Source: Geosiphon pyriformis
Taxonomy: Eukaryota; Glomeromycota; Glomeromycetes; Archaeosporales; Geosiphonaceae
Length of the DNA stretch: 64,000 bases
NCBI GenBank assembly: GCA_016748015.1
Contig: JAAOMT010000227.1
Span: forward strand, 121,239-185,238
Reading direction: 5' to 3'
The position numbers and the translations under genes were made by a program. The notes under the pieces were generated by a model. That model did not search any database. It worked only from the letters and a program-made list of their open reading frames with translations, and had not been told where the DNA came from. This document shows positions 27,174 through 56,469 of the stretch, piece after piece (position 1 is the first letter of the stretch; every line of letters begins with the position of its first letter).

Positions 27174-27192
27174 ATTATTTTCTTTTTTTTAA
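27174..27192 (-). other. Gypsy-1 polypurine tract (candidate)
   Basis: Immediately inside the 3' LTR the minus strand reads AAAAAAAAGAAAATAA before TGTTATAC, a purine run where plus-strand priming is expected. Gypsy-2 has AAAAGGAAGAAATAA at the same place (34767-34782). Confidence 0.6.
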
Positions 27193-32924: not shown

Positions 32925-33997
32925 TCATACTGCAACAAAACCAGACAAAGTGAACATTTGTATTACCAAGAATTTCAGGAATTAAAATTTGTAATGTAAT
33001 TATTAAAATTTTCTATTTGTTTAATATTAAGTAATATATAAAATTACTTCTATATAAAAATAGTTAATATGAAGTTAATTTACATTAGATCTACTATGAA
33101 ATCCAAAAATTATAGTATTATTAGAAGTATTCTAAAAAAAAAACAAAATGAAAAAATTGCTCCTTATATTTTCAAAATAAATAATACTTAAACATTAAAA
33201 ACTTATCTAAAAAAAAAAAGAATTACTTATAAAATTTACCAAGAAAAAAAAAATAATAAATGTTAAGAAAAGAAAGAAGCATAAAAATGTATTATTAACT
33301 AATAAAAAGCAAAAATCTTTAAATGAAAAATAACTACTATTTTTTTTAATAGGTGGAATGAATTTTAATTTATACAGAAGAAGATTTCCTTAATTACTTT
33401 TTTACTTTCAATTAAAATTATTTTTTAGTCTTTTTGATTTTAATTTGAGCAGTTAATTGACCATTCTGTTGATCTTTTAATTTACTGTTTTCTTCTTTCA
33501 GATAATTAATTTTCTCTTTTAAACTTTTTATCTTATTCAACAACTTTTGCTTTTGCCTTTTACTTCATTTCTTGGATTTCTCTTGAAATTTGGTTATTTT
33601 TTCCCTTTTAATTTCTAAGACTTTTTTAGTCTCATTTAGTTGTTTTTGTAGGGAGTTTATTTGTCTTTCATAAAAAGTAGGCTGACTTATTTCTTCATGA
33701 GATAAGAGAAAAAGTTTTTTCTCTTCTAAATCTTCATTGTTTCTAATACAGTAACAAATATTCTTATTATTAACAATATCAAAATCTAACTTAGTTTGCA
33801 ATTTACCACATCTATTGCACTTTGACAATTCATTATCCCAATACTTTTCTTCACATCTTTCACAAACCATGTCATCTGAAATTTATTTTCTAGTTACTTT
33901 GCTATAAGATCTTATTTGGTAAACAGATTTATTATTTTTGTTTTCAAATTTAGAGCAAAAATCACAAGTTTTTTTACTTTTTTTTTCTAATTCTAAA
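32925..33997 (-). repeat. Left terminal inverted repeat of the giant element
   Basis: The repeat is homologous, in inverted orientation, to 55385-56461 over its whole length. The outer 450 bp are non-coding, with GAACATTTGTATTACCAAGA at 32951-32970 matching the reverse complement of the right end. The inner part is the 3' end of a zinc-finger/coiled-coil ORF. Homology resumes beyond Gypsy-2 at 43666 for roughly another 250 bp, so the repeat predates the Gypsy-2 insertion. Confidence 0.85.
33417..33997 (-). pseudogene. Left-arm zinc-finger/coiled-coil gene, 3' part
   Basis: This is the downstream part of a gene split by Gypsy-2. After the insertion point it reads VLELEKKSKKTCDFCSKFE, then, after a stop, MVCERCEEKYWDNELSKCNRC. 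Several CxxC pairs follow, then a coiled coil (FYERQINSLQKQLNETKKVL) and the end GQLTAQIKIKKTKK with a stop near 33417. The CxxC pairs suggest zinc ribbons. The paralogue at 55070-55974 has the same order and the same last residues. Role unknown; location in the arm suggests a DNA-binding or element-specific function. Confidence 0.7.
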
Positions 33998-34001
33998 ACT
34001 G

Positions 34002-34766
34002 TTGTTACAGATAATTATTTGGGGTCTTAAATCAAATAACAAACTTATAACTTAGTGCTTAATAGCTTTTCTGGTTAGTAATATCTGAAAATTTCGTGAA
34101 TTTAAAGGTTTGGTGTTCAGTTCTTTGTATAATAGACAAAGATTTAAGTATTGTAATCTATAGCTTTTCAAAATCGCAATTTTGTCAATTTTTTTCTCAG
34201 TGTAATGGCCAGTAATTCTCCTGGTAAGCTATTTTCTATTAAGTGTTCTATTCTTATTTTTGGGTCTTTTACCAGTTACTTTGATGTTGATAACTCTGTG
34301 CATTAATCTTTAATCAATTAGTAAACAACAAAAAAAAAAAAAAAAAAAAAAAAATACAAGAAAATAAAAAAGTTAAGCCAAGGCAATTAAGTTAATATTT
34401 TGTCAATAGCCATAATCAAGAGCTATTGTTTTAGTGTGGTCAAGTATTAATTACTATCAACACTTTATGTTAATAGTAGAAAGTGAATTAAGATAGCAAA
34501 TAGTTATTTATTGATATTTGTGATTTGGAATAGTTGCTTAAATAAAATCTAAACTAAGAGATCTGTCTTTTCTGCTTTTAATGCTTTTACTATATATATA
34601 TAATTTAGGTTCTACAAGATCACTCACATTTCTAAGTGATGTGTTATAACTTCTTAAACAATGCTCATATTGTTAAACAACATGCTCATATGCTAATTAC
34701 TACTCTCCTATTAGTCTATCTGTTTTTTCTACTATTTTTTTTTAGACATTTTCTTTATGAGTAACA
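34002..34766 (-). repeat. Gypsy-2 3' LTR
   Basis: It begins TGTTACAGATAATTATTTGG and ends ATGAGTAACA. It contains an A run of about 25 bases at 34330-34355 that is shorter and interrupted in the other LTR. A purine-rich tract lies immediately inside (minus strand AAAAGGAAGAAATAA, 34767-34782). Confidence 0.95.
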
Positions 34767-36780
34767 TTATTTCTTCCTTTTAATATTGAGCTCTGTCGAA
34801 ATTTTTACTTTGAATTAAGTTTAATATTTTTTTTTCTAATACTGTTTGTTCAACTTTATTTCTTATATCTTCAATTTGTGTGTTGTTCATTTTTCCTCAT
34901 TGGTTAATAGTGATTGTCTCCATGTCTGTGTGTAACAATATTTCTGGGTAATTTTGAAATATCATGTATAGTCAATAGATTGTTTTAATTTGTAGTGTTA
35001 GATTTGTTTTCTTTCTGATAATATTTCCAATATTCTATATTATTTCTTGATTGAATATCCTTTTGGTTGGATCCAGATATAATTTTTAAATGTTCACTTT
35101 TTGTCTTAACTGATAATAACAATATGGTATTAGAAGTTGTTTTATCTATTGCTTTCAATTTTCTTTTAAAAATTCTTCTGTTGAAATCATGATAATCATT
35201 TTTTTAAAGGTGTTTTTTACTTTCTTTATTATTTTATCTGACCAGTTTATTGATTGTTTCTGTAGTTGCTAGTATAGTGTACTTTTTCCTTTTTGTTTGG
35301 TGTTTCAATAGCAAATTGTTTGGTAGTTAATGACAATTTCTATGTTTAATTGCTGTTAACTTAAGGCCTAAAACAATTGTTAAGCTAAAGTGTGAATATG
35401 ATCTGGTATTTCCATTTTTTTTTGTTGTTTTTGTTGCATATACCATGTCTTTATATATTTTTTTAATTGTTCAATTTAACATGTTTGGTGTCAATAATGA
35501 TGATTGGTTCTAGATTTTATGGAATCTTATCTGGTTGGACTAGTATTTTTTATATTTTTAGTTGTGAAATATTATTGGTAGATAATAATGTGTAGTGATA
35601 AAGTTTTAGTCAATCACTATGTACTGCTTTGACTAAAATTTTGTTGTCCAATCTTAGCTTGTATGCTCCATTTTCTAAAATTTTTTTAATGTAAAATGAT
35701 CCATTCCATTTGGGATTAAACTTTCTACTCCATTGTTTTTCTGCTTTGGTATGATATAAAAGTACTTTGTTTCCAATCCTGAATTCAACTGGTTTGTCTG
35801 GTAATTGGTTATCATGTCTTTTTTTTTGTTTTGCTTATGACCTTTAAATGCTATCAGCTGCTTTTTGCTGTTTGTTTTCTAGTGTTTTCATTAAATTATA
35901 TGCTCTTTTCAACAATGTTTCTTGGAAATTGTCTTCTGTTGTTGGTTTAATTGGGTATGTATTGACTTCTATTTCAACTGGTAGTGTTGCTGTTTTATCA
36001 TATACTAATTCAAATGATGTCTTTTAAGTGGTATTTTGTTTTATTGTCTAATAAGCAAATAATACTAATAGTATCAACAAATCTCATTCATCCTGATTTT
36101 TTTGGCTGATCTTGGCAATTGCTTTACACAATGTTTTGTTGAACTTTTTAACTAAACCATTTGTTTGTGGATGGTATAGTGATGATAATAGTCTTTTATT
36201 CCAAATCTTTGACTTAGATCCTTAGTTGAATAACAATTCTTTTGGATATTTATGTCGACAAATTAGATTTTAATGAATAAATTTGACAACAGATTTTGCA
36301 TTTGCTTTTTGAATGGCTTTTGCTTCTGGCCATTTAGTAAGAAAATCCATAACTACTATAATATATTAGTTTCCTCTACTGGTAATTGTTAATGGTCTAA
36401 CTAAGTTGATTCTGACTTGATCAAATAGCTATTCTACTTTAATTAGTTTTAATGGTTTGCTGGTTCTTGTTTCTTCTCTTCTTTGACATACATTAGAGTT
36501 TTGAACATATTGAATAATGTCTGGATACATTAATGACCAATAGTATCTTTTTTTGGTTTTTTCCATAGTTGCTTCTTTGTGAAAATATTCTGTTGTTGGA
36601 TCTGAATACATGTTAAATAATATTGTCTCTTTCTCTGGTTCTGTAATTACTTTGATTAGTTGGTCTGGATTTCTTCTGTTCTTTTGATAAAGTGTATTTT
36701 AGTAAGTAATAAAGTATTTAGATTGTTGTTTGATATTGTTTTATTCCTTTTGAGATAATTTTTCCTTAAACTGTTAAGTA
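34767..36780 (-). pseudogene. Gypsy-2 integrase and C-terminal tail
   Basis: The zinc-binding domain is at 36611-36429: HKEATMEKTKKRYYWSLMYP, then VCQRREETRTSKPLKLIKVE, with the first cysteine of the pair replaced by S. The catalytic core follows at about 36430-36080 with many stops. NKWFS-type sequence stands where PQTNG is expected, and the region corresponds to SSPYHPQTNG in Gypsy-1. The tail down to 34783 contains a chromodomain-less lysine- and proline-rich stretch similar to Gypsy-1, with no recognised domain. Inactive. Confidence 0.85.
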
Positions 36781-37600
36781 TTTATATAATGCTATAGTTG
36801 TTAATATTTTTGTGTATTCATTTTTTTGTTATATTTTTGGGTTGAAATGTTTCTTAAATTTGTTTCATTTGTGACAAACCATCAGTATTTTCATTGTTTT
36901 TTTCTTTTTTATAATGTACTGTATACTTGAATGATAAAAGTTCTATTTTCCATCTGACATGGCAATTATTTCCAAATTTTTGCTTTTGGATTGATGTCAG
37001 TATATATATCAAATTTCTGGCTTAAGTATTTCTTTCATTTCATGACTGCCCAATAGATAGTTAAGTGTTTTAGTGCTGGTGTTCTATAGTTTTTTCTACT
37101 GAACTCAAACTTTGGCTGGTATATGCTACTGAATATTTTCTTCTATCCAGTTTTTTTTAAGATAGTACAGCTCTCAATGCTTGACCAGGTATATCAGTTG
37201 TAATAATAAATGGCTTGCTGTAATCTGAATATATTAGTACTGGTGCTTGGATAAGCTTTTTTCATAATATGTTGAAGGTTTTTTGCTGGGTTTCAGTCTA
37301 CTCATACTTGATATTTTTGACTTATAGTTGATAGAGTAATTAAGCCAGTTTGGAAAAATCTTTGATAAAGCAGCAATAATAACCTGTAAATCCCAAAAAT
37401 GCTCTTAGTTCTGTCAAGTTGGTTGGTATTAAAAAGTTTTTGACTATTTCAATTTTGTTTAAATCTGTTTTAATGCCATTTTTGCTCATAACATATTCCA
37501 AAAACTTGAGTTCTGTTTTGTCAAAGAAACATTTAGTTGAATTTAATTTTAATTCTACTCGTCTGAGCCTTTAAAACACTTGCTGTAGATGATAAAAATA
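36781..37600 (-). pseudogene. Gypsy-2 RNase H and RT thumb
   Basis: The thumb reads MSKNGIKTDLNKIEIVKNFL and LTELRAFLGFTGYYCCFIKDF (about 37500-37370). RNase H follows at about 37230-36950: FIITTDIPGQALRAVLS, KYSVAYTSQSLSSVEKTIE and the histidine-region TVHYKKEK. Stops occur at W and Q positions. This is the segment that in Gypsy-1 is broken by the LTR-T fragment, so it served as the reference for that insertion. Confidence 0.87.
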
Positions 37601-38199
37601 ATTATCAAATGTTTTTGAGAACACATTGGTATCATTCAAATATATGACTACAGATTTTTATAGTAGTCCAGTGTAAATGATTTCTATTAGCCATTGGAAC
37701 ATGGTTAAAGCATTCATTAAGCTGAATAGTATTACTTTAAATTCAAAGTTCTTTTTTTTTGTGGTAAATGCTGTCTTCTCTTTGTCAGCTGAATTTATGG
37801 CTACTTGCCAGTAATTATTGTTTAAATCAAGTGTTGAGAACCATTTTTTTCCTCTGAAAATATCAAATAATTTTTGGATCTGTAAAATTGAATAGCTGTT
37901 TCTATGGATAATACTGTTGAGTTTTTTATAATCTGGATTTTCCCATTTTTCTTCTGGACTAATACCATTGGTGATGACCATGGATTTATTGATAGTTGAA
38001 TTAACCTGTTGTCTAACATCTAATTGATTTTCTGTTGGATGATTTCATGGTTAGCTAATGATACTTTGTATGCTTGCTGTTTTATTGGCATTGCATCTTC
38101 AGTTTTGATCTGATGTTAAATTATGTTGGTTCTGCCAAATTCATTTTTATTTGCAAAAATGTTGGTGAAATTGTTGAATAACATTTTGGATTACATACA
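37601..38199 (-). pseudogene. Gypsy-2 reverse transcriptase
   Basis: RT blocks are QLSINPWSSPMVLVQKKNG (about 38000-37940), KKWFSTLDLNNNYWQVAIN (about 37850), EKTAFTTKK and the catalytic box VVIYLNDTNVFSKTFDN (about 37650-37600), where the first D of YLDD has become N. The polymerase is therefore dead even apart from the frameshift near 37960. In Gypsy-1 the same box is still YLDD. Confidence 0.9.
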
Positions 38200-39130
38200 T
38201 TAAAGTGGGTCTAAGTTTTCTATGTTCATTTGTTCTAATTGTTCTGGTTGGAGCAAATAATATTTGTTCTGTCCATAGATTATTTGTAATATAATGTCTA
38301 TATATCCACACAGTTGTAGAAAATCTGGAATAGAGCTTGGTGCTTGATCTTCAATTTTGGTGCTTATGTATCCAATAATAGTTCCTTCCAGTATTTCTAT
38401 AATATTTCCCATATTGTTATAGATGAGAATTTTAATGTGACTATAGTTCTTGGCTGGTATGTAGAAATTGACTAATCCAATCTTTTCTGATTCACAAAGT
38501 GTTGCTTCTGCTTCAAAAATCTGATTTTGATCCTTCACTTTTCTTTTTATAGCTAATATGTACTGATCATATAATGGAATAGAAATTGATTGATAGATGG
38601 AGATAATTTTTCCTTTGTCAATAACTTCTTTTTCTGCCATATTAATTGGTATATCTATTCTACTTATGGATCCAAATCCATTAATTTCTCTTGCCATAAT
38701 CTCTAGTTTTTCTCTACTTCCCATTGATACTAACTGAGCTATTTTAACCAGAGACAGGAATATTGCTGTGCTATCTTTTCATTTGGCTCTATGGTATAGG
38801 TTTTTTCAAAATCATTTTGTAGTATTGCAATAATATTTCTTACATATCTTGCATCAATTATTCCTCCTTTGATGTTAATTTCTTTTTTTACTAAACTACT
38901 CTTAGATGCTAGTTGAACCATTGTTGTTGTTGAAATCTCTAGTGCTATTTTTATATTAATGCAGGTGCATAAATATGGTTTCAATTTAATGGCATTTTTT
39001 CTCAAATATCTCAGATCAAACCCTACATTGGTATTATGTACATGTTCTGGCATGATACCTTCATCATTATTACTGAACCATTTTAGTTCCTGCTTCTTGG
39101 AGAGGTCAGGGAGCATAATATATTGTTTAG
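38200..39130 (-). pseudogene. Gypsy-2 dUTPase domain and RT leader
   Basis: The dUTPase motifs are readable in order. Motif 1 is NTNVGFDLRYL (about 39040-39010), motif 2 QLASKSSLVKKEINI (about 38915-38870), motif 3 GGIIDARYVRNIIAIL (about 38870-38820), and the C-terminal motif REINGFGSISRID (about 38690-38650, normally RGxxGFGSTG). The segment continues in frame for 110 more residues (FLQLCGYIDI, QPEQLEQMNIENLDPL) into RT. The domain hydrolyses dUTP. A dUTPase inside Pol between protease and RT is unusual for Ty3/gypsy. One stop near 38740 separates two long open pieces. Confidence 0.88.
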
Positions 39131-40010
39131 AATTTGAATTAGAGTTTGAATCATTATTGTTATTATTGTTAATTTGAATTGAGCTGAAACTATTGTTGTT
39201 GTCATTATTGTCAGAGTCTGAATTAGAATTGAACTATAATTCCAATTCTAATGCACAGCTGCTAATTGGTTCTTTCTCTACAGAGATCATGTAAATCATG
39301 CATGATAGTGGATTGTAAACAATGTCACAATCATCACAATATTTGAAGTTACTGAGAATTAAACAATGTCTGCATAGTCAGATATTCAACTGTTTTAACT
39401 GTTGCTTTTGTTTTTTTCTAATAGGTGTTAGGTTTTGGTAGTGCTCATGAAATTGCTCAGGATTGTCTTTGCTGTCATTAAAAATGTTCAAAGTTACAAT
39501 GTATTTGGGTTCAAGAAGAGTAAGTAAATTGTTTTTGATTTCTAGTATTTCACTGGTTGAAGCTCTTTTTGCTTTTGTGCTCACCATTTTCCAGATTTTA
39601 TGTTTGTCATATAGATACCCTTCCAATCATTACAGTACTCACTTCCAGATGTTGTTGATTGGAGTTTCTTTTCATATCTAGTTATTGATAAGAATTATGT
39701 ATTGACACAATTTATTGCATGTTTTTCCTCTTCCTAAAATGTTGTTCCATATTTCTTTGTCAGATAAAATAGTTCTACATGCTAAACAAGGTTTGTTATT
39801 CTATTTTTTTGTTGTTTGGATCATCTAAACTGTTTAAAAATGCATGGATAGCAGTAAAATTTAGTTGCTATTGGCCATTTTTTGTTGTCACTATAACATG
39901 CACCCATTGTAAACAATTTTTTGCCACAATTGACACATATGAGCTTGGGTCAATAATAATTTGTTTGAGATAGTATGGTGTATAGAATATACATAATAGT
40001 AGTTATTTGT
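39131..40010 (-). pseudogene. Gypsy-2 acidic and zinc-finger spacer
   Basis: An asparagine- and serine-rich acidic stretch (39131-39250) precedes, toward the 5' side, the QFHEHYQNLTPIRKKQKQQL block (39626-39378). A cysteine-rich region then runs to about 39950, with PKLICVNCGKKLFTMGAC at 39945-39890. The CxxC clusters predict zinc binding. The site matching 39925-39945 is where the giant element entered Gypsy-1. Function in the element is unknown; it lies between protease and dUTPase. Confidence 0.75.
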
Positions 40011-40730
40011 GCTAACTCTTCTTCTTTTTCCTTCTTTTTTTCTTTTTTCTTTTCTTCCCAAGTCAAAATTAATGGTAATTCATTGTGGTTATTATCAGAT
40101 TATGAAACTTGATAAGCCTTCCAGGTAGGGGTTTTTTTTTTCTTCAAATTTGATTAATGGTGCTAATATGGTGCTGTTTAGTTTGAAGTGATCACACATG
40201 ACTGGCATTCTTATATGTTGTTTGTTCTGACTAAGCTGTAGCTTTTGCATGTTCCAGTCAAGCACAGCATTGGTTTTGACTAGCCAGTCATTATCAATTA
40301 GTACTTAGTATTAAGTAGTTTCTATTACCAAAACTTTGATTGGTGTAATAATACTATTAACTTTAAATAAGAAATTATCAATCTTGTCAATAGAAGTTTT
40401 GGTTATTCTATTAGCTATTATTATCCTGGTGCTGGCAGCATAATTAACTCAGCAACTTAATTGGTCCATGAATTGTTGTGTGATGATGCTGTCTGCTAAT
40501 CCACTATCCAAAATCAGTTTAATAGTCTGTCTATTGACTTTAGTGTTAGTATACATAGCAGTGGTGAGTTTAATATTGAGTGCAGCTCCACTAAAAAGAG
40601 ACATTGTTGATTTTTTAAGTTCAAAGAAAAAGATGGCTGCAAGAAATTTGTCTTCCATAATAGTTGCTGAAGATATATTGCTAGTAAATGGCTCTTAATT
40701 GGTTTTCCAGTTGTTGAATATGGCATCTTC
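40011..40730 (-). pseudogene. Gypsy-2 aspartic protease
   Basis: The active-site loop is LILDSGLADSIITQQFMDQL (40520-40455). ASTRIIIANRITKTSIDKIDN and a hydrophobic block ending YQVLIDNDWLVKTNAVLD follow at about 40440-40260, as in retropepsins that cut Gag-Pol. DSG is intact here, but a stop follows the QLSC block. The same loop in Gypsy-1 reads LILNSDLTSSII, with the catalytic D changed to N. A lysine/glutamate-rich tract (about 40020-40060) separates it from the zinc-finger spacer. Confidence 0.85.
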
Positions 40731-42907
40731 TGAGGTAACTAAGAGACTTAAATAATTATGAGAATTCAAATTTTGATTATACCTAGTTCCCAAACTCCAC
40801 TGTTATAATTCTGATGGTTGATTTGATAAACTGGGGATTGGTTGGTACATAACTATTGCCAATTGCCAGTTTTGTTGAGTATGGGTGATTTTTGGTTTTT
40901 AATTTTTAGATGTTAAATAAGCTGAGTTTAATGACAATGTTTAAATTGGTTGGAGTTGATAAATTACTTGTGGCTGCAGTGGTTAATAAATTACTGGTGC
41001 TGTTGGCTAATAAATTAGAGGTACATATATTGGCTGTTGTGTCATTTGGGTGTAATGAAATTGATATTGATCCTAATTTAGATAATAACTTGGAGTTTGA
41101 AATCTGCAATTAGGGTTTTAGTATTGATTTTCTGATTGTAAGTTATTATAAAATCAGCAGTCAGCTCTTAGATGACATTGTTTGCCACAATTGTGGCAGA
41201 CACACATTTTTTGTTATCATGGTTGATTTGATGATAATGAGGAATATGACTGATTTTGGAAATAATTCATGTTTCCTGGATTATTGTGTCATTGGAGAGA
41301 TTAATAGATTGCCTGATTATTAGCTAAGTATCCTTTTAATTTCTGATTAATTGAATCACTGAATTGTTTCAGTTTAGAATTCAATTTAGATGATCCATTC
41401 ATTACTAGATTTATGGCTTGGGTGTGGTTGGCTTCTAATTAAGTGGTTTTAAAATTTTTGGCATAAATGACTGTGGCTTGAAAGTCTGCTAAATGTAATA
41501 GACATATACATTAGAGGATGCTACTGTACAGGCCTCTAATAAATTAATCCAAAATTTGTGGTATGATAAAATAATCAGCTTGTATTGCTTGAATTTGGTG
41601 CAGATTTCTGTAAAAGTGTTCCAAGTAAGTAGTGACTGCTTCAGTTTTTCCTTGTTTAATAGTAATAAAGGTGTTGGCTAAGCAGTTGATACTGTTATTA
41701 TTGCTAAAATATCACAGAAACTTAAGCTTAAATTTATTGAAATCTTGGAGTTTGTTGACCAAACTTTGATATCACAAGTTGGCAGTATTCTGGAGAAAAT
41801 ATAAAATGACTTGTATGGCTCTGGCATTGTTTCATTCATTGGCTGTGATGACTTTTTTTATATTGTTCAGCCATACTTGTGCATCATTTTTTTCACCAGT
41901 AAACTTTTCAAGCTTGACAATAGATACATATGTCATTGGTATAATTAGTGGTTGCTATTGTACTGGTAGTTGTTGAAGTAAGATTGGCAGCTGTTGCTAT
42001 ATTGGTTCAACAATCAGGTCAATTAGTGGTTGATTAATCATGATTACTAAAGGTAAGTTTTGCTAATTAATAAGATTGGGGTTTGGATTGTGCTGATTTT
42101 TCTGAGTTTAAATATTTAGAGTTTCAACTTCCAGGTTTTCTAAAATCAGGTTGTGATAATAGAATTTTTGATTGTTGTTTTCTTCTTCTTCTGATTTGGT
42201 TATTTCCCAGAAACTCACAATTCTGAAATCTGATTGAGATAGTGGTGATCAAAATCCTAATGGTATTAGTGATCACGATTTAAATCCTTCAAAATAATCA
42301 TTGTAAGTTCCTAATAATTCTGCTTTCTTTTGTTTACTTTGAAATAGAAGTCATTCAAATGTTGATGTCATATTTGATGTAAATATATCTGCTAATGTAA
42401 TATTGATAGTACTTCTAGGTGTGTGATGATATAATAGATATAGTGGAGATTCAATTTTTTGTTTCTTTTACATTGGTAATTGTATTTCTTTTGGAATTGC
42501 TGTTGGTGTTTGTAACTTTTTTTTACTCTTATCTGCATAGGTAATAGAGAATTGTTGTTGAGTATATCTTTTAATTTCTTGATAGATTTCCCTAATGATT
42601 GGTACAAAACTGTGATTTTGTAATAAACTGGTGTGTTGAATTAATTTTGTATAGAAATTTTTTCTTGCTAATTCAATGTCAACTGGTCTTCCTAGAAAGT
42701 CTGTGATTCTTTTGTTGATGTAAAAGTTGAAGGCTGATTCTATTGGATAATGGTTGTTGGTTAAGTCCAATTGTTAGCTGTACTGTTGAAATAAAAATTT
42801 GGCAAATTCTAAATGGTTTGTTCTTATTATTTCTGATTCTGCCACTTTTGAATGATTGCTGTTGGTGCTGGTTCTTTGTAGGATTATACTTTACAGGAAG
42901 CACTAAA
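40731..42907 (-). pseudogene. Gypsy-2 gag
   Basis: Gag runs from near the 5' LTR at about 42900 toward 40731. The N-terminal part includes FAKFLFQQYS, YPIESAFNFYINKRITDFLG (about 42740-42690) and QHTSLLQNHSFVPIIREIYQ. The capsid-like retrotransposon gag block is at about 41940-41580 (KLEKFTGEKNDAQVWL, YLEHFYRNLHQIQAIQADYF). A CCHC knuckle CHNCGKQCHLRADC lies at about 41201-41160. A proline/glutamine-rich linker leads to the protease. Stops and frame shifts are common. Confidence 0.88.
42892..42907 (-). other. Gypsy-2 primer-binding site (candidate)
   Basis: On the minus strand, two bases after the 5' LTR ends (GTAACA TT) comes TAGTGCTTCCTGTA. The equivalent in Gypsy-1 is TGGTGCTCTCTGTG, which begins with the TGG expected to pair with a tRNA 3' CCA. 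The tRNA was not identified. Confidence 0.5.
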
Positions 42908-43661
42908 TGTTACAAGTGATTATTTAGGATCTCAAATCAAATAACAAACTTATAACTTGGTGCTCAATAGCTTCTCTGGTTAGTGATATCTGAAGATTTT
43001 ATGAATTTGAAGGTTTGGTGTTGAGTTCTTTGTATAATAGACAGATATTCAAGTGTTGTAATCCATAAACTTCCTGGAATTACAATTCTGTCAATTTTTT
43101 TTTTAGCATAATAGCCAGTAATTTTCCTGGTAAGCTATTTTCTATCAAGTATTTTACTCTTATTTTTGGGTTTTTTACCAGTCACTTTGATGTTGATAAT
43201 TTCATGCATTAATCTTTAATCAATTAGTAAACAACAAAAAAAACAAACAAAAAAAAGAAAAAAAAAAATACAAGAAAATAAAGAAGTTAAGCCAAGACAA
43301 TTAAGTTAGTATCCTGTCAATAGCCATGATCAAGAGTTATTGTTTCAGTATAGTCAAGTATTAATTTTTATTAACATAAAGTGTTGATAGTAAAAAGTGA
43401 ATTGAAATAGCAAATAGGTATTTATTAATATTTGTAATTTGGAATAATTGGTTAGATAAAATTTAAACTAAGAGGTCTGTCTTTTCTGCTTTTAATGCTT
43501 TTGCTATATATACATAATTTAAGTTCTACAAGATTGCTTATATTCTCAAGTGATGTGCTATGACTTCTTAAGCAATGTGTTTACATGCTAACTATTACTT
43601 TTTTATTGGTCTATCTGTTTTTTCTACTATTTTTCTTTAGACTTTTTTTTTATGAGTAACA
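42908..43661 (-). repeat. Gypsy-2 5' LTR
   Basis: It begins TGTTACAAGTGATTATTTAG and ends ATGAGTAACA, and is homologous to 34002-34766 throughout. Visible differences are mostly transitions and small indels. It is followed by the target copy CTGT and then by the left-arm gene of the giant element. Confidence 0.95.
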
Positions 43662-43665
43662 CTGT

Positions 43666-44715: not shown

Positions 44716-44802
44716 TCAATTTTTAATAAATACTTAATATCTTTTTTTTTATAAAAGCAATATTAAGTATATAATTATTTTATTAGTTTATTTTTAAATT
44801 TT

Positions 44803-46556: not shown

Positions 46557-46904
46557 TCATATATATACTTATCTTTATATATATAATTTATGTTTACTTT
46601 GTAGGTTTTTTTATTATGTTCAAAAGACATTATACCTGTATTATTACATAAATAAATTGAAAACAAAGTTCTCTTACATACTATCATTAGAATATTTGGT
46701 TCTTACTTTATTTTTAAAAACATCAATTAATGCTTTAAAATTATTTTTAGTCAAATCAACAATTAAAAAAATCAATGAACAAATTATTCTAACTCTTATA
46801 TATAAAATTTCAAAAAACATATTTACAATTAAGCAAAAATAAAATAAAATTTCTAAGCTAGAAGAGTATAATACTAAAATACAGTTATTACTTATTAGTT
46901 ATTC
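46557..46904. other. AT-rich non-coding interval
   Basis: The presumed upstream region of the DDE-like gene. TATATATA runs occur near 46557-46590. A 61-codon plus-strand frame (46657-46842) is leucine/isoleucine/lysine-rich without a recognisable domain, and is more likely chance in AT-rich DNA than a gene. Confidence 0.4.
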
Positions 46905-47310
46905 AATCTCTGTTTTTTCTTATTTATTATTTTTTCTCTTTTAACATTTGAAATAATATTATTATTGTTCAAATCATTACTTAAGGTTATTTGCTCACAT
47001 AAAAGTTCATTGATAATAGTAAACACTTGACAAACTTCATTTTTTAGAGTTTCTTAACAAGTACTTATTTTATCAAATGATATATGGTAGATATTTTGGC
47101 TTGTTGAAATTATGTCATAATTTGCTGAAAAAGCAATAAAAAACCAGCTTGTAATATCAATGACAATTCTATAAACACTATTATCTTTATGCTTGTATTT
47201 AGTATTTTCTTATATAAAATATTGTAATTCAATATCTATAGTCTATTAACAATTCTTATACAGAAAAATAAACTGTAAAATACTCTAGTAACAGCTCCCA
47301 ATTAAACCAA
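46905..47310 (-). pseudogene. Unrecognised broken ORF in the giant element
   Basis: One minus-strand frame reads for about 130 codons with four stops. It looks coding: QFIFLYKNC, KYKHKDNSVYRIVIDITSWF, IAFSANYDIISTSQNIYHI, then KNEVCQVFTIINELLCEQIT and a lysine-rich end NKKKQRLNN before a TAA. No domain is recognised. It may belong with the short open block at 48832-49030 on the same strand as exons of one gene, but no clean splice pair was seen. Confidence 0.4.
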
Positions 47311-49577
47311 ATTTTGTGCTACTCCCCCAAACAAATTCTGCATCTTTGCTTTAGTAATATATATAACATTTTGTTTGTAGTAAATTTGGAAGTTTAAAGA
47401 ATCTTAACCATGTGTTCCAGATGAATGTTATTCGATGCAAACACTAATTTTATCTGCATTCTTCTTAAGTACTTTTCAACAAAAGTGAACAGTGTTGTGG
47501 ATTATGCTAAATATAAATTCAAATTAAGTTGCTTTATTACTGTCACTAAGCATACCCAAATTATCTTGTCATTTTTGAATTTAGAGAACATAAATAAGCA
47601 ATTTGTTTCCAAATTGAAAAAAGTCGCAGTATGTTCTACATATTTTATTGTAACAATAAAAAATAGGTATTTTAAGATTTTTAATTAAAGAAATATACAA
47701 TGTATTATGTGTTATTTTTTCATATAATAACTAATTTTTCTTAATATTTTATATAATAGAAAATACAGCAAATACACAATCTAAAATCAATTCATTATTA
47801 CTGCAGAATAAATAAATCTTATGTTATAAATTTGATTTCAATGATGCTATCACTGAAATTTCAATTACATGATTTTGATTTTTATATAAATTAGTGACTA
47901 AATTTTAATAGCATAATAGAATTTTTAAATGTGGATCATTTTTCAAAAATTGTTACATGGTTATTTATATTATTTTACAATAGTTACCTTATTAAAAATA
48001 ATGCTATTATATGACAAGTCACAGATTTGTATATCAAAAAAAAAATTTTTTTTATAGACATGTAATTTTCAAGCTTTTTTATTATATCCTATATTCTAAT
48101 CAAATCTGATCAAAAGTTTTCTCATAATAATACAATAAATAAAATTTATAATAATAGGAGATTTAAAATGTTATATGGTTGGCTTGGTCTAAAGACCTCC
48201 TATTTTTGTGCCATATGATCAAAAATTTCAAAAATAGCAATTTTGTAATTCATTTAAAATACAATAAATTTTTTTTAAAAATTTTTGAAAATAGGGTTTT
48301 ACGTAATTTGGGGTTTAAAAATTATTTCATACTGCCAAATTTATATATAATGATCATGTGCTAATCTAAATTTAAAAATAATTTTTGTGGTTTGGTCTAA
48401 ATTTAGTAATAATCCTAAAAACCAAATTCCTCATGAACATAGTAAAGTACATGTTCTAAAAAAAAATAGAACTTTACAACAAATAATTTTTTTGAAAATA
48501 TCTCATTATTATATTAAAAATAAAGACTTATTCTATCAACTAATAATACTATTTTTTTAAAAAGTAGGACAGAAAGTGACTTTTATATTTTTAATATTTA
48601 TGCAAAATTTAAGAGATTTTTAGACTAAGCCAATTATAATAACACATACAAATTTAAAATATGAAATAAAAGAATCAATAAACTTAACAGTATAAAAGAA
48701 ACAAGAAACTAATAATATTACAAATAAGTAAAAATAAAATATTATTATTATATATTTACAAATTTAATTTTTATGAAAAAATTTAAGAATTGAACTTAAT
48801 AATTACCTTTTTTTTGGATATATTTAGAAATTTAAAATAGTATTATATATTTAGAACAAAGATAATTTTTTACCATTCTTTTATTTAAAGCATTATGAAA
48901 TTCAATTGTCTTCCAACTGGTATCTTTTGCTGCTAAATACAATTCAATATATAATTTGTAATCATTTACAAACTTATTTCTCATTTCAGTTATTTGATTA
49001 TAAAGCAATATACAAAACATGTTATAAGCATGCAAGAAAACAATGCACAAAACATGTAAAATTTGTGAAACAGCATGTAAATATGTTTATTAACACAACA
49101 GAAATGTTAATATTCTATTTACTAATAAAATAATGATTTTTTTTTTAATAAAGACAATATCCTGTTTATATAATTAAAGTAAAATATAATAAAAATAATT
49201 CACAAAATAAATTCCAAATTAATTTTATATAAGACTATTCCTCAAAATAATTAATATATATATATATACACACATATATATTTAAATTTAATTTTTCACG
49301 TAAAATAATGATTAGAATTAAATTTCATATATATTAAGATAATAAATAAATTCTAGCCAATAAACTCAATTAAATTTGTCGATCATTATTGACCAATCAC
49401 AAAGAAATTTTGTTATGCTAATCTTAATGTTAATACAAAATTTGTTTACTCTATAATTATGGCTATGCCTAATGAAAACAGATAACTTATTGATTTTTTT
49501 TTATGAGATCTAACACAATAGTAACCCTGCTTTTCCTCTGTCCATACTCTAAAACAGATTCTTGAATATTTCAATTG
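47311..49577. other. Mostly non-coding AT-rich interval with one short ORF
   Basis: A minus-strand open block at 49030-48832 (ITEMRNKFVNDYKLYIELYL, DTSWKTIEFHNALNKRMVK) has codon usage and composition like real protein and may be an exon of the gene represented at 46905-47310. A plus-strand frame at 47425-47688 has no recognisable feature. A TA/CA dinucleotide run lies at about 49254-49280. Nothing else can be supported. Confidence 0.4.
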
Positions 49578-49692
49578 CATGTCTTCCAAATGGAATATTT
49601 TAAACTTCTTAGATAAATGTGATCTGAAACAATTTGATCAGAAAATAGGGCTATACCTTAAATCTCTGGAAAAAATTGCCAATAAAGAAAAA
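49578..49692 (+). pseudogene. Possible first exon of the LPSGK gene
   Basis: An ATG at 49578 opens a frame MSSKWNILNFLDKCDLKQFD, continuing to KSLEKIANKEKG before a GTAAAA that could be a donor. Base composition and residues look coding, and the strand and order fit the multi-exon gene starting at 50073. The intron between them would be unusually long and would contain the GC-rich repeat at 49790-49968. The link is an inference. Confidence 0.35.
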
Positions 49693-49789
49693 GGTAAAAG
49701 ACAATAAAAAGCACTTATCCTGCTCAAAAAATACAGAATGGCAAGTGTTAGTTTAGAACTCCTGTTAAAGATTTGGTGGCATGGGAGGA

Positions 49790-49968
49790 ATCTAGAAGGT
49801 TTCTGTCATTCAAGTCTAGAAGGTAAGCCACAAAGCTAATGTTAGGGCCCAGGTGATCTAGAAGATTGCCTGGTGTTTAAGGCTAGAAGCTAACCTAACA
49901 TTGGCCCCACAGGGCGCGGACAATCTAGAAGGTTGGCCAAGTTTAAGGCTAAAAGCTGAACCTGTGGG
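49790..49968. repeat. GC-richer array of three 66-bp units
   Basis: Three tandem units start at 49790, 49856 and 49923, each opening ATCTAGAAGRTT and carrying RTCTAGAAG or GGCTARAAGCT about 30 bases later. They lie in a patch (GGGCCC, GGCCCC, GGGCGCGG) clearly richer in GC than the surroundings. No coding frame crosses them. Confidence 0.75.
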
Positions 49969-50072
49969 ATAAATAAAAAAGTTAGGAATTTGTTAATTAA
50001 AAATTTGCTAATTCTTTGAATCTTCTTTATTAAGGTGCTTAATCTGATTACAATTTGGCAAAAAAATAGAAA

Positions 50073-52090
50073 AGTGAGCATGAATCAACTAGTGCCATTG
50101 GTGAACCTTCAGTTTACCTTCATAATCCAACATTTATAGGAAATCCTTTGGTAAAAAATACTGGAAACATTAATGATAGGACTTTTAAATTATCTGAAGA
50201 AAGTGTGCCAAAAAGGAAAAAGAACAATGATCATAAAAAGATATATGTACACATTTTTTTAGATATATTTATTACTTTGTAATTTTATTCCTAATGAAGA
50301 CCTTAATATTTAGGATAATCCAAAACGAACAAAAACTATTGATAAAGCAGAAAATATAGATGATAGTAGGACAGATTCAGAATATGATAAGAAAAATTTA
50401 AACTATGACGATGATTTAGACTATGATAATAATAATGATAATGTAGATTATAATAACTACGATATCAATCCAAATATTGAGTTATCAGAAAAACAAATAC
50501 CAGTCCAAAATCACTTAAAGTACCCCAATAAAAACAGTTCAGACAATATTTGGAAGTTGCCTTCTGGCAAATCTATTAATAAAATAATTTGTGGCCCTAA
50601 AAATTTGCACAAATTGCAATAGGTTTTATCTTCTTTATTTCTTCTCTTTATGTTTCTTGATCTAACAAATTAGCCCATGTAATTTGTATATAGCCCATCA
50701 TATTTAAGTATTTTACACATTGGATCAAAAATCAGGAAGCCGGAATGGATTAAGCAAGAGAATTGGAATTATTTAAATTCAAGTGTTGAATATTCACATT
50801 ACAATTTATCAACCAAAATTGAAGATCTATTCAATGTACTATTAGAAACTGTAAGTACAAATAGTAAAAATGCTCATTTATTTTAATGAAAATGTTATTT
50901 ATATATTTTTATTATTAATTAATAACAGAATTCATTAAATAAGTATAAAAATTGTCTTTATAATATCACATTTGACCATGAGAAAAATATAAAAATGACA
51001 TTTGTAACAGATGTTCTATTATGGTTGTAAGTATAAAAGTTTTGTAGAAGTACTGTTTATTTCTCACAATTTATTTTTTAATTTATTTTAATTTTAAAGT
51101 GCAAAAAACATATTCAACACTAAAAATGAAGCATTGTTGAGATCATTTATGATTCATCTAGTACTACAATATCTTGTAAATACAACCAATCACATTATAT
51201 ATGTGCCGTATGTTTTTTGATTAAAATATCAAATTAATACTTTCATTTTTCTTTATAATATTAAATATGCAAGTTTTTTCAAAAAATAGAGGTAAGATTT
51301 ATCTTAAAGCTAATGCAAATTAGTGATTATTATGATGTAACTTCAAACCTGATAATGATAAACTCTTGGACATGAAAGTTGATGGTTCTTTCTAGTTTCC
51401 AAATGATAAAAGACTAGAAATTGGCATGGTTGAATTATCTAGTAGATACTTAACCAAGAATACACTTTGTTATTTAAAGAATCACGTAAAAAAAAATTGG
51501 GGATGCCATGATCTCTTTAATAAAATAATTAAAAAATACAATCATGATAACTATAAAATTCTGAAACATTTATGTGTTTGGTTTTTCTATATACATGGTA
51601 AGTTAATAGATAAGCTGAATTTTAATTTTTGCATTTGTTAATAAATTGTCTTTGCTTGTGCATAAATCTTGAAGTACAAATATGGGGCATAGATTTGCCT
51701 GTTGCAAAAACTTATTGAATGTTTCTTATTGATGTCTTTTATCTTCCAATCAGTTGGAATAACCATTATAAACTAGTCCACGCATTAAGGGTTTTGCAAA
51801 ATCTTAGGGTAAGAAAAATCTTCATTCCTTTGTATTGAAAGTATTGAAATATCTCATTTTGATCATTATTTATTTTCATACAGAGAGGTTTAAATGATTC
51901 TCTTAAGGTACTTGAAGAATTCAAAAAGTCACATCACCAAAATACAATTATATGCTTTCAATCTCCAACACTAAAAAGATATATGGGTGATGCTAAGAAT
52001 TCACCACAAAAACCTATGGGAAAAAAATCACATATCATAAATCCAGTAATGCATCACATGTATCATGATCATGATGATTCCAACAATTAA
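50073..52090 (+). pseudogene. Eight-exon gene with LPSGK motif, broken by C-to-T stops
   Basis: Exons: 50073-50246, 50314-about 50619, about 50693-50850, 50929-51026, 51100-51207, 51290-51597, 51675-51808 and 51884-52090. All but the second intron have clear GT-AG ends and keep phase; the clear introns are 67-83 bases. The protein has an acidic N-part (DDDLDYDNNNDNVDY), then DNIWKLPSGKSINKI, KPEWIKQENWNYL, TFVTDVLLWFAKNIF, EIGMVELSSRYLTKN, KNWGCHDLFNKI, LHVQIWGIDLPVAKTY and SHHQNTIICFQSPTLKRYM. Stops: TAG 50620, TAG 51321, TGA 51324, TGA 51333, TAG 51393, TGA 51716, each where Q or R would fit. I recognise it only as resembling a large family of uncharacterised proteins in mycorrhizal fungi. 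Confidence 0.7.
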
Positions 52091-53046
52091 TATGATCCAT
52101 TTTCACCATCTCCATCAAGACATTAAAGATGAAATTAAAGTTTTTATTTACTATACATTGAATTTAAATTTAATGAAACATTTTTTTAACATGATTATTG
52201 AATTATTGGTTAGCGAGTATGTGTAAAATTTATTTTGCATTCTTAAAATAATATTCTTGAGATATGAAATGGAAATTGTTAAGTCTTACTATAAAAGTAT
52301 AATAAAAAATTAATAAAGTAATCCACAATAAAACTTATTAATCATTATCAAATTGCATAATTTGCAATGTTTTTATTTATGATTTAGTCTTGATTTGATA
52401 CTGTAAACATTCAAATAATTATCACAATTATTTAATGGTTTTAATAAAAAGATAATTTAATTGTTTTAAAATTACAAAAGTTATCTTTTATTTGATTAAA
52501 TTTTAGTCCTTTAAATAATAAAATTACATGTTTTAAAATAATATAAATTATAAATTATATTGTAATAATTAAATAAATTAAAATACAATCTCTAGATTGT
52601 ATGAAAAGCTTATAGACTTCTCAGAAAATACAATCATAGTTAAAGATAACTTTTATTAAACATAATATAAAAATAATAAATAATATAATAATATTCTCCT
52701 CAATCTAACAATATGAATAATAATATAACATCTAAAACCTCTAATAAAATATATGATTACAATTATAATAATATCTTTAATTCTTTAGCACCATAACAAT
52801 AATACTGATTGTTAACAGGATTTTTTTGGATTACCAAATATGGTAATAAAAATTAATTACCAAATTAGAATTATTATATTTTTTTTTTGTGATCAATAAT
52901 AATTCAAAGATTGTTACAGATACCCTGTGATAAACATATTTGATTCATATTTTTTGGAATTTTTGATGACAGTCCGTTGCCAAAAATTTAATACTTTAGT
53001 TATATTTTAAATAAATAATAAGATATAAAAAATCTATTACTAAAAC
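52091..53046. other. AT-rich intergenic interval
   Basis: Between the end of the eight-exon gene and the start of the next plus-strand gene. There is no coding capacity, and poly-T and poly-A tracts are frequent. It may hold the terminator of the first gene and the promoter of the second, but no specific motif stands out. Confidence 0.45.
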
Positions 53047-54843
53047 ATGCAATCTGAAATTGATTCACTAAAGCAATGAATTTCTGAGCTTGAAACCAAG
53101 AATGCCAAGCTTTTAAAACAGGTTATGGAAGAGAATGCCAAGTGAAAAGCTGAAAATGCTGAGCTTAAGGCCAGAATCAAAGAGCTAGAGAAAAATAAAA
53201 TAGATACTACTAACCTTAAGGCTGAGAACAATAAGCTTAATACCAGGGTTGTAAAATTAGAACAGTCATCAAACAATATTACACACGAATTAGAAAATTC
53301 TGTTCTCTACAAAGCATCGTCTATAAAGTTGTGAGTGAAACTCTTCCAAAAATCAGTCATGGAGTTTTGACATGTCATACACTAATTGTTTATTAGAGTT
53401 TTGCAGAGTTTCGCATTTTGGGGGTTTTGACAATTGACAGATTTTTAATAGGTTGCACATTAATTGTTTATTAGAGTTTCAACAGAGTTTCAACTAGTCA
53501 CTAAGAGGTTTTGCCCATAACTTTAATCATTCGATATTTCTTCCAATATATGTGCACCCCCATCCAAGTCTAAATTGTTAGAAGATATAGAGACTGATAA
53601 TTTTCTAGATGTGCAGAGTAAGAAAGAGGTTAGTGATATGATAAGAAAGAAAAGCAAGAAAAAGAAACTTCAAACTCAAGGGTTACATAATACCTCTTTA
53701 CCAATGTCAACTCTGTTGATATTATCTGAAATATTAATTTCTAATGATAATTCACCTGAAGTCTTTAAAGCTCTGGACTTAAAAACCAAGAATCAAAATC
53801 AAATTAAAAGCCAAAACAAATTACACAAGAAAAAAGGAACTAAGAATATTGCTCAAGTGATAGCTGATGGCATTTAGGATGCACTTGCACACAGCTTCAC
53901 TGATAATATCCATTCAGAATTGAATCATGTGACTGAAATTTCAGTGATGGGCCATTATCAAAATTTTGATACAATTTCATTATTTGATTTAGTTCAATTA
54001 TTTGATAAAGCAACTAATGCTGAATATTATGCTATGAAAGCTAACCAGAAAGAAACCTTATGCTGGATCAACTATGGAAATGAATTCATAATTCAGTATA
54101 ATAATCTTATAAAAAATAGTAATAGCAAAATTGATAAGAAAAAGGCAAAAAGTATAATTTGTAATAAAATATTACTATTATCTGTAAAAAAAAATCCAAG
54201 GAAATAGAATTACAGCTTTCAGAAATTTTACATAAAACTTTATTTAGAAAACCCAAAAAGCTGTAAAGACATATAAGTTATTTGAAAAAATATACAAAGA
54301 TAAAATTAAGTATCTTAAAACATATAGCACAAATTCTATTTCAGAGTTAACCAATGATCAAATTCAAAAGATTATCAATAATAATAATATTTTTGATTAT
54401 GATAAGTTCAATATAAAAGAAAAATCAAATCACATGACTGAAATTTCAACAACATTTTGTTACCAAAATCATAAAACTGAAATTTTGCCTGAGGTAAATA
54501 TATCTATCAAATCCAAATCTTTAACTCTTCTGTAAAAATAAAGAACTTATTAGAAGCCAAGATAAGTATACCATTTGTATTTCATTCCAAAAAGGCTTTA
54601 TTAGAAACTGAGATAAATGTATTATTAGTATTTTAATCTCAAACTGAAACAAAGACTTTATCTAAGAAACAAAATAATCTAATCTATGACTATGCTTACT
54701 TTCATAATAAGATATTGTTGTAATATTCAAATCTATATAAAACATTTATTGCTAAAAAATTTGATTACTATAGAATTAATGAGAGATCATTATGCCCAAT
54801 ATGTAAACTAGATTATAAAGATGAAAAAAGTATAAAAAAGTAA
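53047..54843 (+). pseudogene. Coiled-coil protein gene in the right part of the giant element
   Basis: ATG at 53047 opens MQSEIDSLKQ, then TGA where R is expected, then ISELETKNAKLLKQVMEEN, another TGA, and AENAELKARIKELEKNKID, a leucine-heptad coiled coil. After an interval with a direct repeat (53300-53560, possibly an intron) come LEDIETDNFLDVQSKKEVSD (53575), a serine/asparagine-rich part, then FDLVQLFDKATNAEYYAMKA and LCWINYGNEFIIQYNNLI (53990-54110). After more stops comes KTFIAKNFDYYRINERSLCP with ICKL, a CxxC end, and TAA at 54843. It resembles an expanded uncharacterised family of mycorrhizal fungi. The stops seen are TGA or TAA in place of R or Q. Confidence 0.65.
53376..53500. repeat. 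Direct repeat of about 77 bp in the coiled-coil gene
   Basis: Two copies share TAATTGTTTATTAGAGTTT and a following AGAGTTTC, starting near 53382 and 53459. They fall in the non-open stretch between the coiled-coil part and LEDIETDNF, so they may lie in an intron or be a local duplication that broke the frame. Confidence 0.6.
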
Positions 54844-55069
54844 TACTAAAAAAAAGTAATATATAAATCTTTATGTATATAATGTATTAGAGTGTATAAT
54901 GTCCTAATTAAATCAAAATTAATTGGTAATCTGTCTATAAATCGGGACAAATAATCTACATTTAATAATAAATTTTGGATTAATAAAACATATCTCACTT
55001 TCTTTACTAATTAAACATTTTTATAAAAACATAAGTTTAATAAAAAAGTTAGATAATGAAGTGTGAATA
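54844..55069. other. Short AT-rich spacer before the right-arm gene
   Basis: No coding frame, and no feature beyond A-rich runs. It separates the end of the coiled-coil gene from the start of the zinc-finger/coiled-coil ORF of the right arm. Confidence 0.4.
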
Positions 55070-55974
55070 AAGCAAAAAAAGGCTGAAAAAGCATTGAATA
55101 AAACCATAGAATAAAAAAAATAACAAATATTTGAAACTGTGTTAAAGCATAATACTGTAATAGACAAACTTCAAGACCAAATAAATTTATTAGAAAATAA
55201 TTTAGCTACTAAAAATCAGAAAATAAACTGAAAAAATTATTTAACAACCAAAAAATTACCATCTTTACCAAAGAAACAAAAAGAAAATAGATTATGCAAA
55301 CTCAAAAAATTAATAAGTAAAGTAAAAAAAAAGGCTAAAGAGAAATTCCAGACTTTTATTGTTTAAAAGAACAAGTAAACCAATATGAGATTAAAATATA
55401 GAATTCTGAAAATAGCCCAGAGAGATAAACAAGAGTGTAATTTCTGTTTTCTAGATTTTAATAACCCAATTCTCCTTAATTTTAATACTGCTCCTGCTAT
55501 TTATCAAATAGTGATTCATAATACTCCTGATGGTTATTTTAACATTGTCTTTATCTGTGGTAAATATAAAAAAAATTATGATAATAATACTCTTTCATGA
55601 TGTGAAAAATGTGGTAGGTTAAAAAGGAATAGAAACAGATGTTTTTGTAGTCATTTAAAAACTAAATCAACTAAACTACTTTTTAACAAAGAACTATTTT
55701 TACAAGTCTTTAGTTTTTGCCTAGAAAATAAAACTAAAAAACTAGAAAATGAGTTATCAATTACCAAAAAAGAATTAAAAGTTGAAAGAGAAAAAATAGC
55801 CAAGTTTTAGGAAAAATCAAAAAAGTAAAGTAAAAAGCAAAAACAAGAATTATTAAATAAGATAAAAAGTTTAGAAGAAAAAATTAATCATCTAAAAACA
55901 GAAAACAAAAAATTAAAAGATTAACAGAATGGTCAATTAACTGCTCAAATTAAAGTTAAAAAGACTAAAAGATG
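55070..55974 (+). pseudogene. Right-arm zinc-finger/coiled-coil gene
   Basis: The plus-strand counterpart of the left-arm gene. It starts in a coiled coil (LKHNTVIDKLQDQINLLENN, KKLPSLPKKQKENRLCKLKK) with stops. It then reads MRLKYRILKIAQRDKQECNF at 55387, YFNIVFICGKYKKNYDNN, a TGA, CEKCGRLKRNRNRCFC (zinc-ribbon-like cysteine pairs), KELFLQVFSFCLENKTKKLE, and a second coiled coil ending NGQLTAQIKVKKTKR with TGA at 55974. Order and last residues equal the left arm. The initial MR-LKY and the CxxC spacing align with MRELKYT...CDFC there. The arms thus encode two related proteins reading outward. Confidence 0.7.
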
Positions 55975-56461
55975 ATCTTAATTGAAAATAAAAAAGTAAT
56001 TAAGAAAATTTCTCTCTGTATAATTCCAAATATTAAAGAAAATGATATTTATTTTTTTTTTAAAGATTTTTGCTTTTTGTTAGGTAATAATACATTTTCA
56101 TGCTTCTTTTTTTTCTTAAAATTTATTATTTTTCTTTTTTTTTGATAAATTTCATAAGTAATCTTTTTTTTTTTTAGATAAGTTTCTAATGTTTAAGTAT
56201 TATTTATTTTGAAAATGTAAGGAGCAATTTTTTCACCTTGTTCTTTTTTTAGAATATTTTTGATAGTACTATAATTTTTGGGTTCCATAATAGATCTGAT
56301 GTAGATTAACTTTATATTAACTATTTTTATATAGAAGTAATTCTATATATTACTTAATATTAAACAAATGAGAAATTTTAATAATCACATTACAAATTTT
56401 GATCCCTAAAATTCTTGGTAATACTAATGTTCATTTTGTCTGATTTTGTTGTAACATGTTC
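55150..56461 (+). repeat. Right terminal inverted repeat of the giant element
   Basis: Inverted counterpart of 32925-33997 plus 43666 to about 43900. The non-coding outer 450 bp match strongly, with TCTTGGTAATACTAATGTTC at 56413-56432. The inner limit is set where coiled-coil similarity fades, near 55150. The two arms differ mainly by transitions and A/T run lengths. Confidence 0.82.
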
Positions 56462-56469
56462 CATATAAG

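Follow-up and report, generated by a model that had tools for sequence, protein, structure and literature searches.

The question raised by this locus is what occupies the long segment with inverted ends in the middle of the window, the 64,000-nucleotide stretch of Geosiphon pyriformis DNA analyzed here. The segment is very probably a dead composite copy from a family of cut-and-paste DNA transposons, with a DUF7869 transposase, two 3′ ends, and relatives in which UGA appears to stand for Trp.

One insertion within a gypsy element

Alignment of the window with itself pairs residues 32933–33630 with 56451–55763 in inverted orientation at 86% identity. The left terminal inverted repeat (32922–33640, plus strand) is a reversed copy of the 3′ end of the family, and the right one spans 55753–56462 (minus strand). 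An earlier note on this DNA had described inverted ends of more than 1 kb; the orientation is as described, and at the DNA level about 0.7 kb aligns, at 86%. The recipient of the transposon is an outer gypsy element (26255–60267, minus strand; LTRs at about 26255–27174 and 59349–60267). A second gypsy element is nested inside the transposon (34003–43661, minus strand) with LTRs of 764/754 bp (34003–34766 and 42908–43661) and the duplication CTGT. The left and right halves of the outer gypsy meet at the transposon ends, in agreement with the insertion within a gypsy element that had been claimed. The joined flanks match the nested gypsy, which is continuous at the corresponding place, about 39943, and thus supplies the empty site that the note had located in a related gypsy.

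The termini of the paired copies described below usually start with GGGGCRTGCTGCAAC, and the window copy has GAGTCATACTG, compared with the 15 other paired copies. The boundaries were therefore set at 32922–56462 (23,541 bp including the nested gypsy) and the target-site duplication at ATAT (32918–32921 and 56463–56466). A single insertion with inverted ends had been proposed at 32925–56461, and only its exact limits are revised. The 8-bp duplication proposed with it, CATATGAG/CATATAAG, includes bases of the element and is replaced by the 4 bp ATAT on comparison of 16 pairs; the empty site is identical under the 8-bp and 4-bp readings. Removal of the nested gypsy and its CTGT duplication leaves 13,878 bp, consistent with the ~13.9 kb previously estimated. 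These data show that the segment is one insertion with inverted ends inside another gypsy element.

A family of paired termini in the genome

The 124.7-Mb assembly was searched for family copies. The terminal 33-mer gives 59 genome matches at ≤3 mismatches, the left end of the window copy included, and its reversed control gives none at this threshold. The 25-mer core of the terminus occurs 142 times in the genome (100 places listed). Among the matches listed, a number of termini are paired, plus followed by minus, at spacings of 0.36–8.6 kb. Sixteen pairs were compared (window, L009–L017, L019, L023, C309, C330, L035, and L036); L017 was shifted by one base, and L034 and L037 were left out because one terminus of each is altered. 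The flanking 4-mer is identical in 13 of the 16 pairs compared to a shuffle mean of 8.5 (p = 0.001). The duplications of these 13 pairs are ATAT, AAAT, or ATTT, all of the form AWWT, and the flanking 4-mers of L011, L019, and L036 are not identical. The identical 4-mers in 13 of 16 pairs set the duplication length at 4 bp and the element at 32922–56462. The conserved termini of the family are written as GGGGCRTGCTGCAACAAAACCAGACAAAGTGAAC/GGGGCRTGCTGC ends. Terminal inverted repeats are short in L010 (41 bp) and L009 (56 bp), and the repeat alignments extend over 153–486 columns in L011, L012, L013, L015, L016, L017, and L019.

The note had left room for end sequences that are never paired in inverted orientation elsewhere; the other genomic copies do form inverted pairs with target duplications. 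A genome search with the ends, which it had suggested, recovers the expected paired copies, with duplications of 4 bp rather than 8 and with interiors that differ while the transposase is kept. Miniature derivatives of 0.36–0.47 kb (L034–L037) carry the family termini, and these suggest movement in trans. On contig C96, identical termini at 299315–299347 (minus strand) and 318180–318212 (plus strand) face outward about 19 kb apart and are possibly another rearranged pair.

Two 3′ ends in the window copy

Those relatives in which a transposase and both ends are present (L009, L010, L016, L019, and L023) share the order 5′ end, interior, transposase, 3′ end. Matches to an accessory gene were obtained in L009, L010, L039, L040, and the right end of the window copy, and the gene lies between the transposase and the 3′ end in these four relatives; no match was found in L016, L019, and L023 at the threshold used. 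The window transposase runs leftward to the left end, like a reversed copy of the relative C402. The right end (55042–56467; 1.43 kb) matches the same 3′ end of C402, giving two inverted 3′ ends. The end part of accessory gene 2, with a zinc-ribbon and a coiled coil, was located at 33565–33882 (minus strand), adjoining the nested gypsy, from its ORF and a protein-level match between the left and right ends. Its probable remains at 43701–44706 (minus strand) were assigned from position and weak matches to C402, and the second inverted copy of its end, within the family 3′ end, is at 55042–55810 (plus strand). An internal 5′ terminus was not recognizable in the window copy with up to 8 substitutions allowed. 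Judged by sequence, both ends of the window copy are copies of the family's 3′ end, and they flank 8.4 kb. The composite copy in the window shows that an element of this kind is able to carry along 8 kb of unrelated DNA flanked by two like ends.

The two 3′ ends, the failure to find an internal 5′ terminus at ≤8 substitutions, and a right side that has no transposase match could also mean that the left and right ends come from different elements, brought together by two independent insertions or by an assembly join. We consider this improbable. The two ends adjoin the outer gypsy at a single point and share ATAT, the flanks, once joined, match the related nested gypsy, and the ends are 86% identical to each other compared to 79% and 74% to the C402 copy. 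These observations favor a single composite insertion.

The DUF7869 transposase and known transposon classes

The window transposase is a pseudogene (44803–46442, minus strand) with in-frame stops and one frame break, and two of its three candidate catalytic Asp residues are replaced by Asn. DUF7869 (PF25273) scores 60.8 bits in L010 and 40.9 bits in the window, with a gathering cutoff of 26. The enzyme of the family is a DUF7869 transposase with a putative DDD, RNase H-like core. A sequence search of the PDB returned three vimentin rows only (E 0.5–0.7), Foldseek matched nothing at E 0.001, the window had no Rfam match, and the name DUF7869 was found in no paper of the literature searched. 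In the transposase tree, the window copy groups with P0135 of Gigaspora rosea (100/93), environmental proteins, L021, and L022, and a clade (93/90) shared with Ambispora and Diversispora takes in the other 15 Geosiphon rows. The placement of the window transposase apart from the other Geosiphon rows is only suggestive, because the composition of the window copy, L021, and L022 is marked as unusual in the tree.

A TIR transposon with a DDE-like gene and additional genes had been recognized previously, and a DUF7869 transposase, an accessory gene, and passengers are indeed present. The UGA-coded transposase of the relatives, the two 3′ ends, and a passenger matching another fungal order were absent from that description. 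It had also raised the prospect of an undescribed class of very large, cargo-carrying TIR transposon. The 13.9 kb left after removal of the nested gypsy, the variable interiors, and the absence of DUF7869 by name from the literature searched speak for such a class. It is nonetheless unlikely, since paired relatives span just 0.36–8.6 kb among the matches listed, and the ATAT/AAAT/ATTT duplications and swapped non-transposase parts match those described for amoeba Sola2 (PMC3627910). The window copy is long because of its 8.4-kb interior and the nested gypsy. The data support a variable-interior, Sola2-like family with a recoded transposase, likened to Sola2 by its duplication and swapped part.

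Sola2 includes the Sola2-Fanzor chimeras of Dictyostelium fasciculatum and Polysphondylium pallidum (PMC3627910). As described there, Sola2 elements resemble the Geosiphon family in their terminal inverted repeats, in 4-bp AT-rich duplications of the exact set ATAT/AAAT/ATTT, and in a transposase part that is kept while the other part is unrelated between elements; the comparison covers duplications, ends, and the swapped part. The Geosiphon family differs in its use of UGA for Trp and in the longer end repeats of many copies, and no Fanzor was noticed in it. KolobokP elements are likewise TIR elements with a DDD/E transposase and have been termed composite-like (PMC9587614), whereas the Geosiphon family duplicates a 4-bp AWWT. 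A homing endonuclease was not found among the Pfam matches of the Geosiphon family.

Pack-MULE, MULE, hAT, P, and Zisupton elements make duplications of 8–9 bp, and Polinton/Maverick elements make duplications of 6 bp. Membership in MULE/hAT/P/Zisupton or in Polinton/Maverick was rejected on the 4-bp duplications of the paired copies. Pack-MULEs and Mutator-like elements are similar in being TIR elements that bear gene pieces but differ from the Geosiphon family, which has a 4-bp duplication and a DUF7869 transposase. MULEs have been proposed as spreaders of gene families in Rhizophagus (PMC8647823).

Variable interiors and passenger genes

Of the eleven interiors compared, eight come from copies that have both ends (window, L009, L010, L013, L016, L017, L019, and L023) and three from copies of which the retrieved stretch includes a single end (L022, L025, and L038); L011, L012, L015, and others were not included. 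By blastn, 3 of the 55 interior pairs share >80 bp, one of which consists of two copies of the same element (L022/L025), and tblastx adds the pair L010/L038. The interiors differ between copies, and the transposase is kept. Nine passenger ORF pieces were searched against Pfam. Both L019 pieces pass the cutoff of a fungal protein-kinase family, and L023 has a kinase-like match below the cutoff. The longest passenger ORF, in L022 (1290–3896), is open for 869 aa, contains 12 TGG codons, and matches no Pfam family; the transposase of the same copy is heavily decayed.

The 8.4-kb interior of the window copy (46650–55040) has, besides itself, 29 short partial genome matches, the longest about 350 bp, in a search that skips very common words. 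Partial matches of 67–86% fall at 49562–49980, and the interior is otherwise almost matchless. Passenger gene 2 (50070–52226, plus strand) is broken into two ORF pieces with no Pfam family, one of which has two weak genome matches (40% and 34%). Passenger gene 1 (53527–54535, plus strand) is also broken, and its single genome match is itself. Its 13 database matches include named proteins from Entrophospora (two), Acaulospora, Dentiscutata, Gigaspora, and Racocetra, and the closest is from Entrophospora sp. SA101. Passenger 1 and Entrophospora P0121 are identical at 107 of 124 residues. Sixteen of the 17 differences fit C>T/G>A changes in the window, none fits the reverse change only, and one fits neither. 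The same changes fit 19 of 23 differences from Entrophospora P0133 and 11 of 12 from P0127 (62 residues), and the corresponding values are 11/17 for Gigaspora (72 residues), 21/40 for Dentiscutata, 18/45 for Racocetra, and 16/46 for Acaulospora; the share explicable in this way among random residue pairs is 9%. The pattern is consistent with a source shared recently with Entrophospora or one of its near relatives and with subsequent decay, and suggests that the passenger moved between fungal orders. A contaminated database entry could also produce the Entrophospora match.

TGA codons at Trp positions of the transposase

UGA is a stop codon in ordinary fungal genes. Transposase codons were compared in 26 copies, consisting of the fetched loci and the window that match P0134 at 1e-8; well-kept copies are over-represented because 10 of the 26 (L040–L049) are C309 and nine other better match rows. 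In 13 of the 26 copies, the in-frame stops are solely TGA, and 37 of 37 are at five conserved Trp positions (6,317 codons). These clean copies were chosen by stop count and include L010 (4338–6143), L038, L040–L044, L046, and L047; L015 and L039 are short. The 16 copies that have no more than one other stop contain 46 TGA at Trp, 23 TGG at Trp, and 3 other stops, and all 26 copies together contain 63 TGA at Trp, 15 TGA elsewhere, and 58 TAA/TAG. A 14-copy tree built without the Trp-site codons requires at least 2, 3, 2, and 1 TGG/TGA changes at positions 133, 212, 312, and 403, respectively. All 14 tree copies have TGA at position 85, where the window copy has TGG and four fungal gene models have Trp. 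Downstream of position 85, the first TGA, the median dN/dS is 0.093 and the maximum is 0.282 (59 of 78 pairs with a value), and this part of the transposase is under purifying selection. Frames in which TGA is read as Trp extend for 612 (L009), 602 (L010), and 559 aa (L038) and are otherwise ≤272 aa. The accessory gene also has TGA/TGG switches, at three columns. Because TGA lies at Trp positions, switches with TGG, and is followed by sequence under purifying selection, UGA appears to be read as Trp in the better-kept transposase copies.

The position 312 Trp, beside the first candidate catalytic residue, is absent from 18 of the 19 named fungal gene models that span it, and the position 133 Trp is present in 12 of the 17 that span that position. 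Five of seven Geosiphon gene models stop at 402, just ahead of the Trp/TGA site at 403. Truncated or gapped models are expected if annotators encountered TGA at these places. Passenger ORFs are TGA-free by construction (open in the standard code) and serve for contrast rather than as a test. The frame of a LINE copy in L018 contains 1 TAA, 2 TAG, and 3 TGA, counted without regard to residue, and makes a weak control. There are no tRNA genes in the window, and the only tRNA in 23 loci is a tRNA-Gly beyond the element end in L023. A tRNA-Trp pattern matched two tRNA-Gly-like places in the genome; the pattern missed even an ordinary tRNA-Trp, so the result has no bearing on Trp tRNAs.

The TGA codons could instead be ordinary TGG>TGA decay in a family whose copies are all dead. 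Repeats at this locus have strong transition decay, 10 of the 26 copies have at least two other stops, and selection of the 13 clean copies by stop count, with 10 of 26 copies taken from better match rows, leans the same way. Decay alone does not account well for the pattern. The 46 TGA at Trp compare with 3 other stops in the 16 copies with at most one other stop, even though decay could also produce stops by TGG>TAG and by C>T at CAA/CAG/CGA. None of the 13 clean copies is without TGA at Trp, there are at least 8 TGG/TGA switches at Trp sites in the 14-copy tree, and dN/dS after the first TGA stays at a median of 0.093 and a maximum of 0.282. We judge that decay is probably not the explanation.

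Mollicutes-related endobacteria read UGA as Trp, and their GC3 is expected to be lower than 0.34–0.41. The recoded transposase could be native to such bacteria and the nuclear copies immigrants, which we think doubtful. GC3 is 0.34 over the 13 clean copies and 0.41 in L010, above the expectation for these bacteria; the copies lie on fungal contigs up to 2.7 Mb; and two pattern scans of prokaryote genomes detected no relative. One scan of IMG/VR gave no relative. Geosiphon does harbor Mollicutes-related endobacteria (PMC13315312), and gene transfer from host to such bacteria has been reported (PMC10507103). The entries of a Candidatus Moeniiplasma glomeromycotorum MAG include a DUF7869 protein, P0051 (57%), either as contamination or as a true endobacterial copy. 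P0051 falls outside the clade that holds the named fungal rows in the tree, and the presence of host contigs in endobacterial assemblies has been reported as a possibility (PMC11423566).

UGA might be decoded by readthrough, with a suppressor tRNA, after A-to-I editing, or because the family has its home in an endobacterium. A wider proposal, which we consider evenly balanced, is that Geosiphon and related fungi have a multicopy nuclear family of DNA transposons that uses a UGA=Trp dialect for its transposase and accessory gene and the standard code for its passengers. Its transposition would need regulated UGA decoding (readthrough, suppressor tRNA, or conversion of UGA to UGG by A-to-I editing) or a partner genome with UGA=Trp sharing the cytoplasm, and passengers would be ferried between fungal orders. 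Ciliate nuclear genes are similar in that a stop codon serves as an amino acid codon (PMC4967479), whereas the apparent recoding in Geosiphon is seen in one transposon family. Other Geosiphon genes are annotated in the standard code, with a BUSCO score of 93.2% (PMC9453076). A survey of the titles and abstract openings of literature on UGA-as-Trp readthrough in nuclear transposases found nothing on such recoding. For a specialist, the surprise would lie in the apparently recoded transposase of the better-kept copies. If UGA is truly sense, the family would be a fungal mobile element gated by translation or editing, a new means of holding or regulating a transposon that annotation has overlooked. 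Two questions become testable, namely the decoding of UGA as Trp and gene movement between distant fungal orders.

Probable order of insertions and proposed mechanism

The proposed mechanism builds on what is established above: the ends and their duplication, the empty site, the nesting, the match to DUF7869, the variability of the interiors, and the decay. The DUF7869 transposase would bind the conserved GGGGCRTGCTGCAACAAAACCAGACAAAGTGAAC ends and excise the element, and insertion at AWWT would give the 4-bp duplication. Since the Trp sites of the least decayed relatives carry UGA as well as UGG, their enzyme could be produced only where UGA is translated as Trp. The window copy lacks the 5′ end, and an inverted second 3′ end stands in its place; this second end may derive from two neighboring elements or from an inverted duplication before insertion. 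The two 3′ ends would then have carried the transposase and 8.4 kb of unrelated DNA into the gypsy as one composite unit. The nested gypsy inserted afterward, and C>T/G>A decay broke the genes.

The K2P distances are 0.162 between the transposon ends, 0.161 between the nested LTRs, and 0.165 between the outer LTRs. The simplest reading is that the outer gypsy, the transposon, and the nested gypsy arrived in that order and in quick succession, and that the transposon ends hardly differed when the element inserted. Equal K2P values of the ends and LTRs would also result from shared hypermutation. Transitions make up 82 of 100 differences between the ends, 94 of 105 between the nested LTRs, and 120 of 128 between the outer LTRs, and transversions are more numerous between the transposon ends than between either LTR pair. 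The transition-dominated differences of the LTR and terminal-repeat pairs in the window mark a strong C>T/G>A-like decay of repeats.
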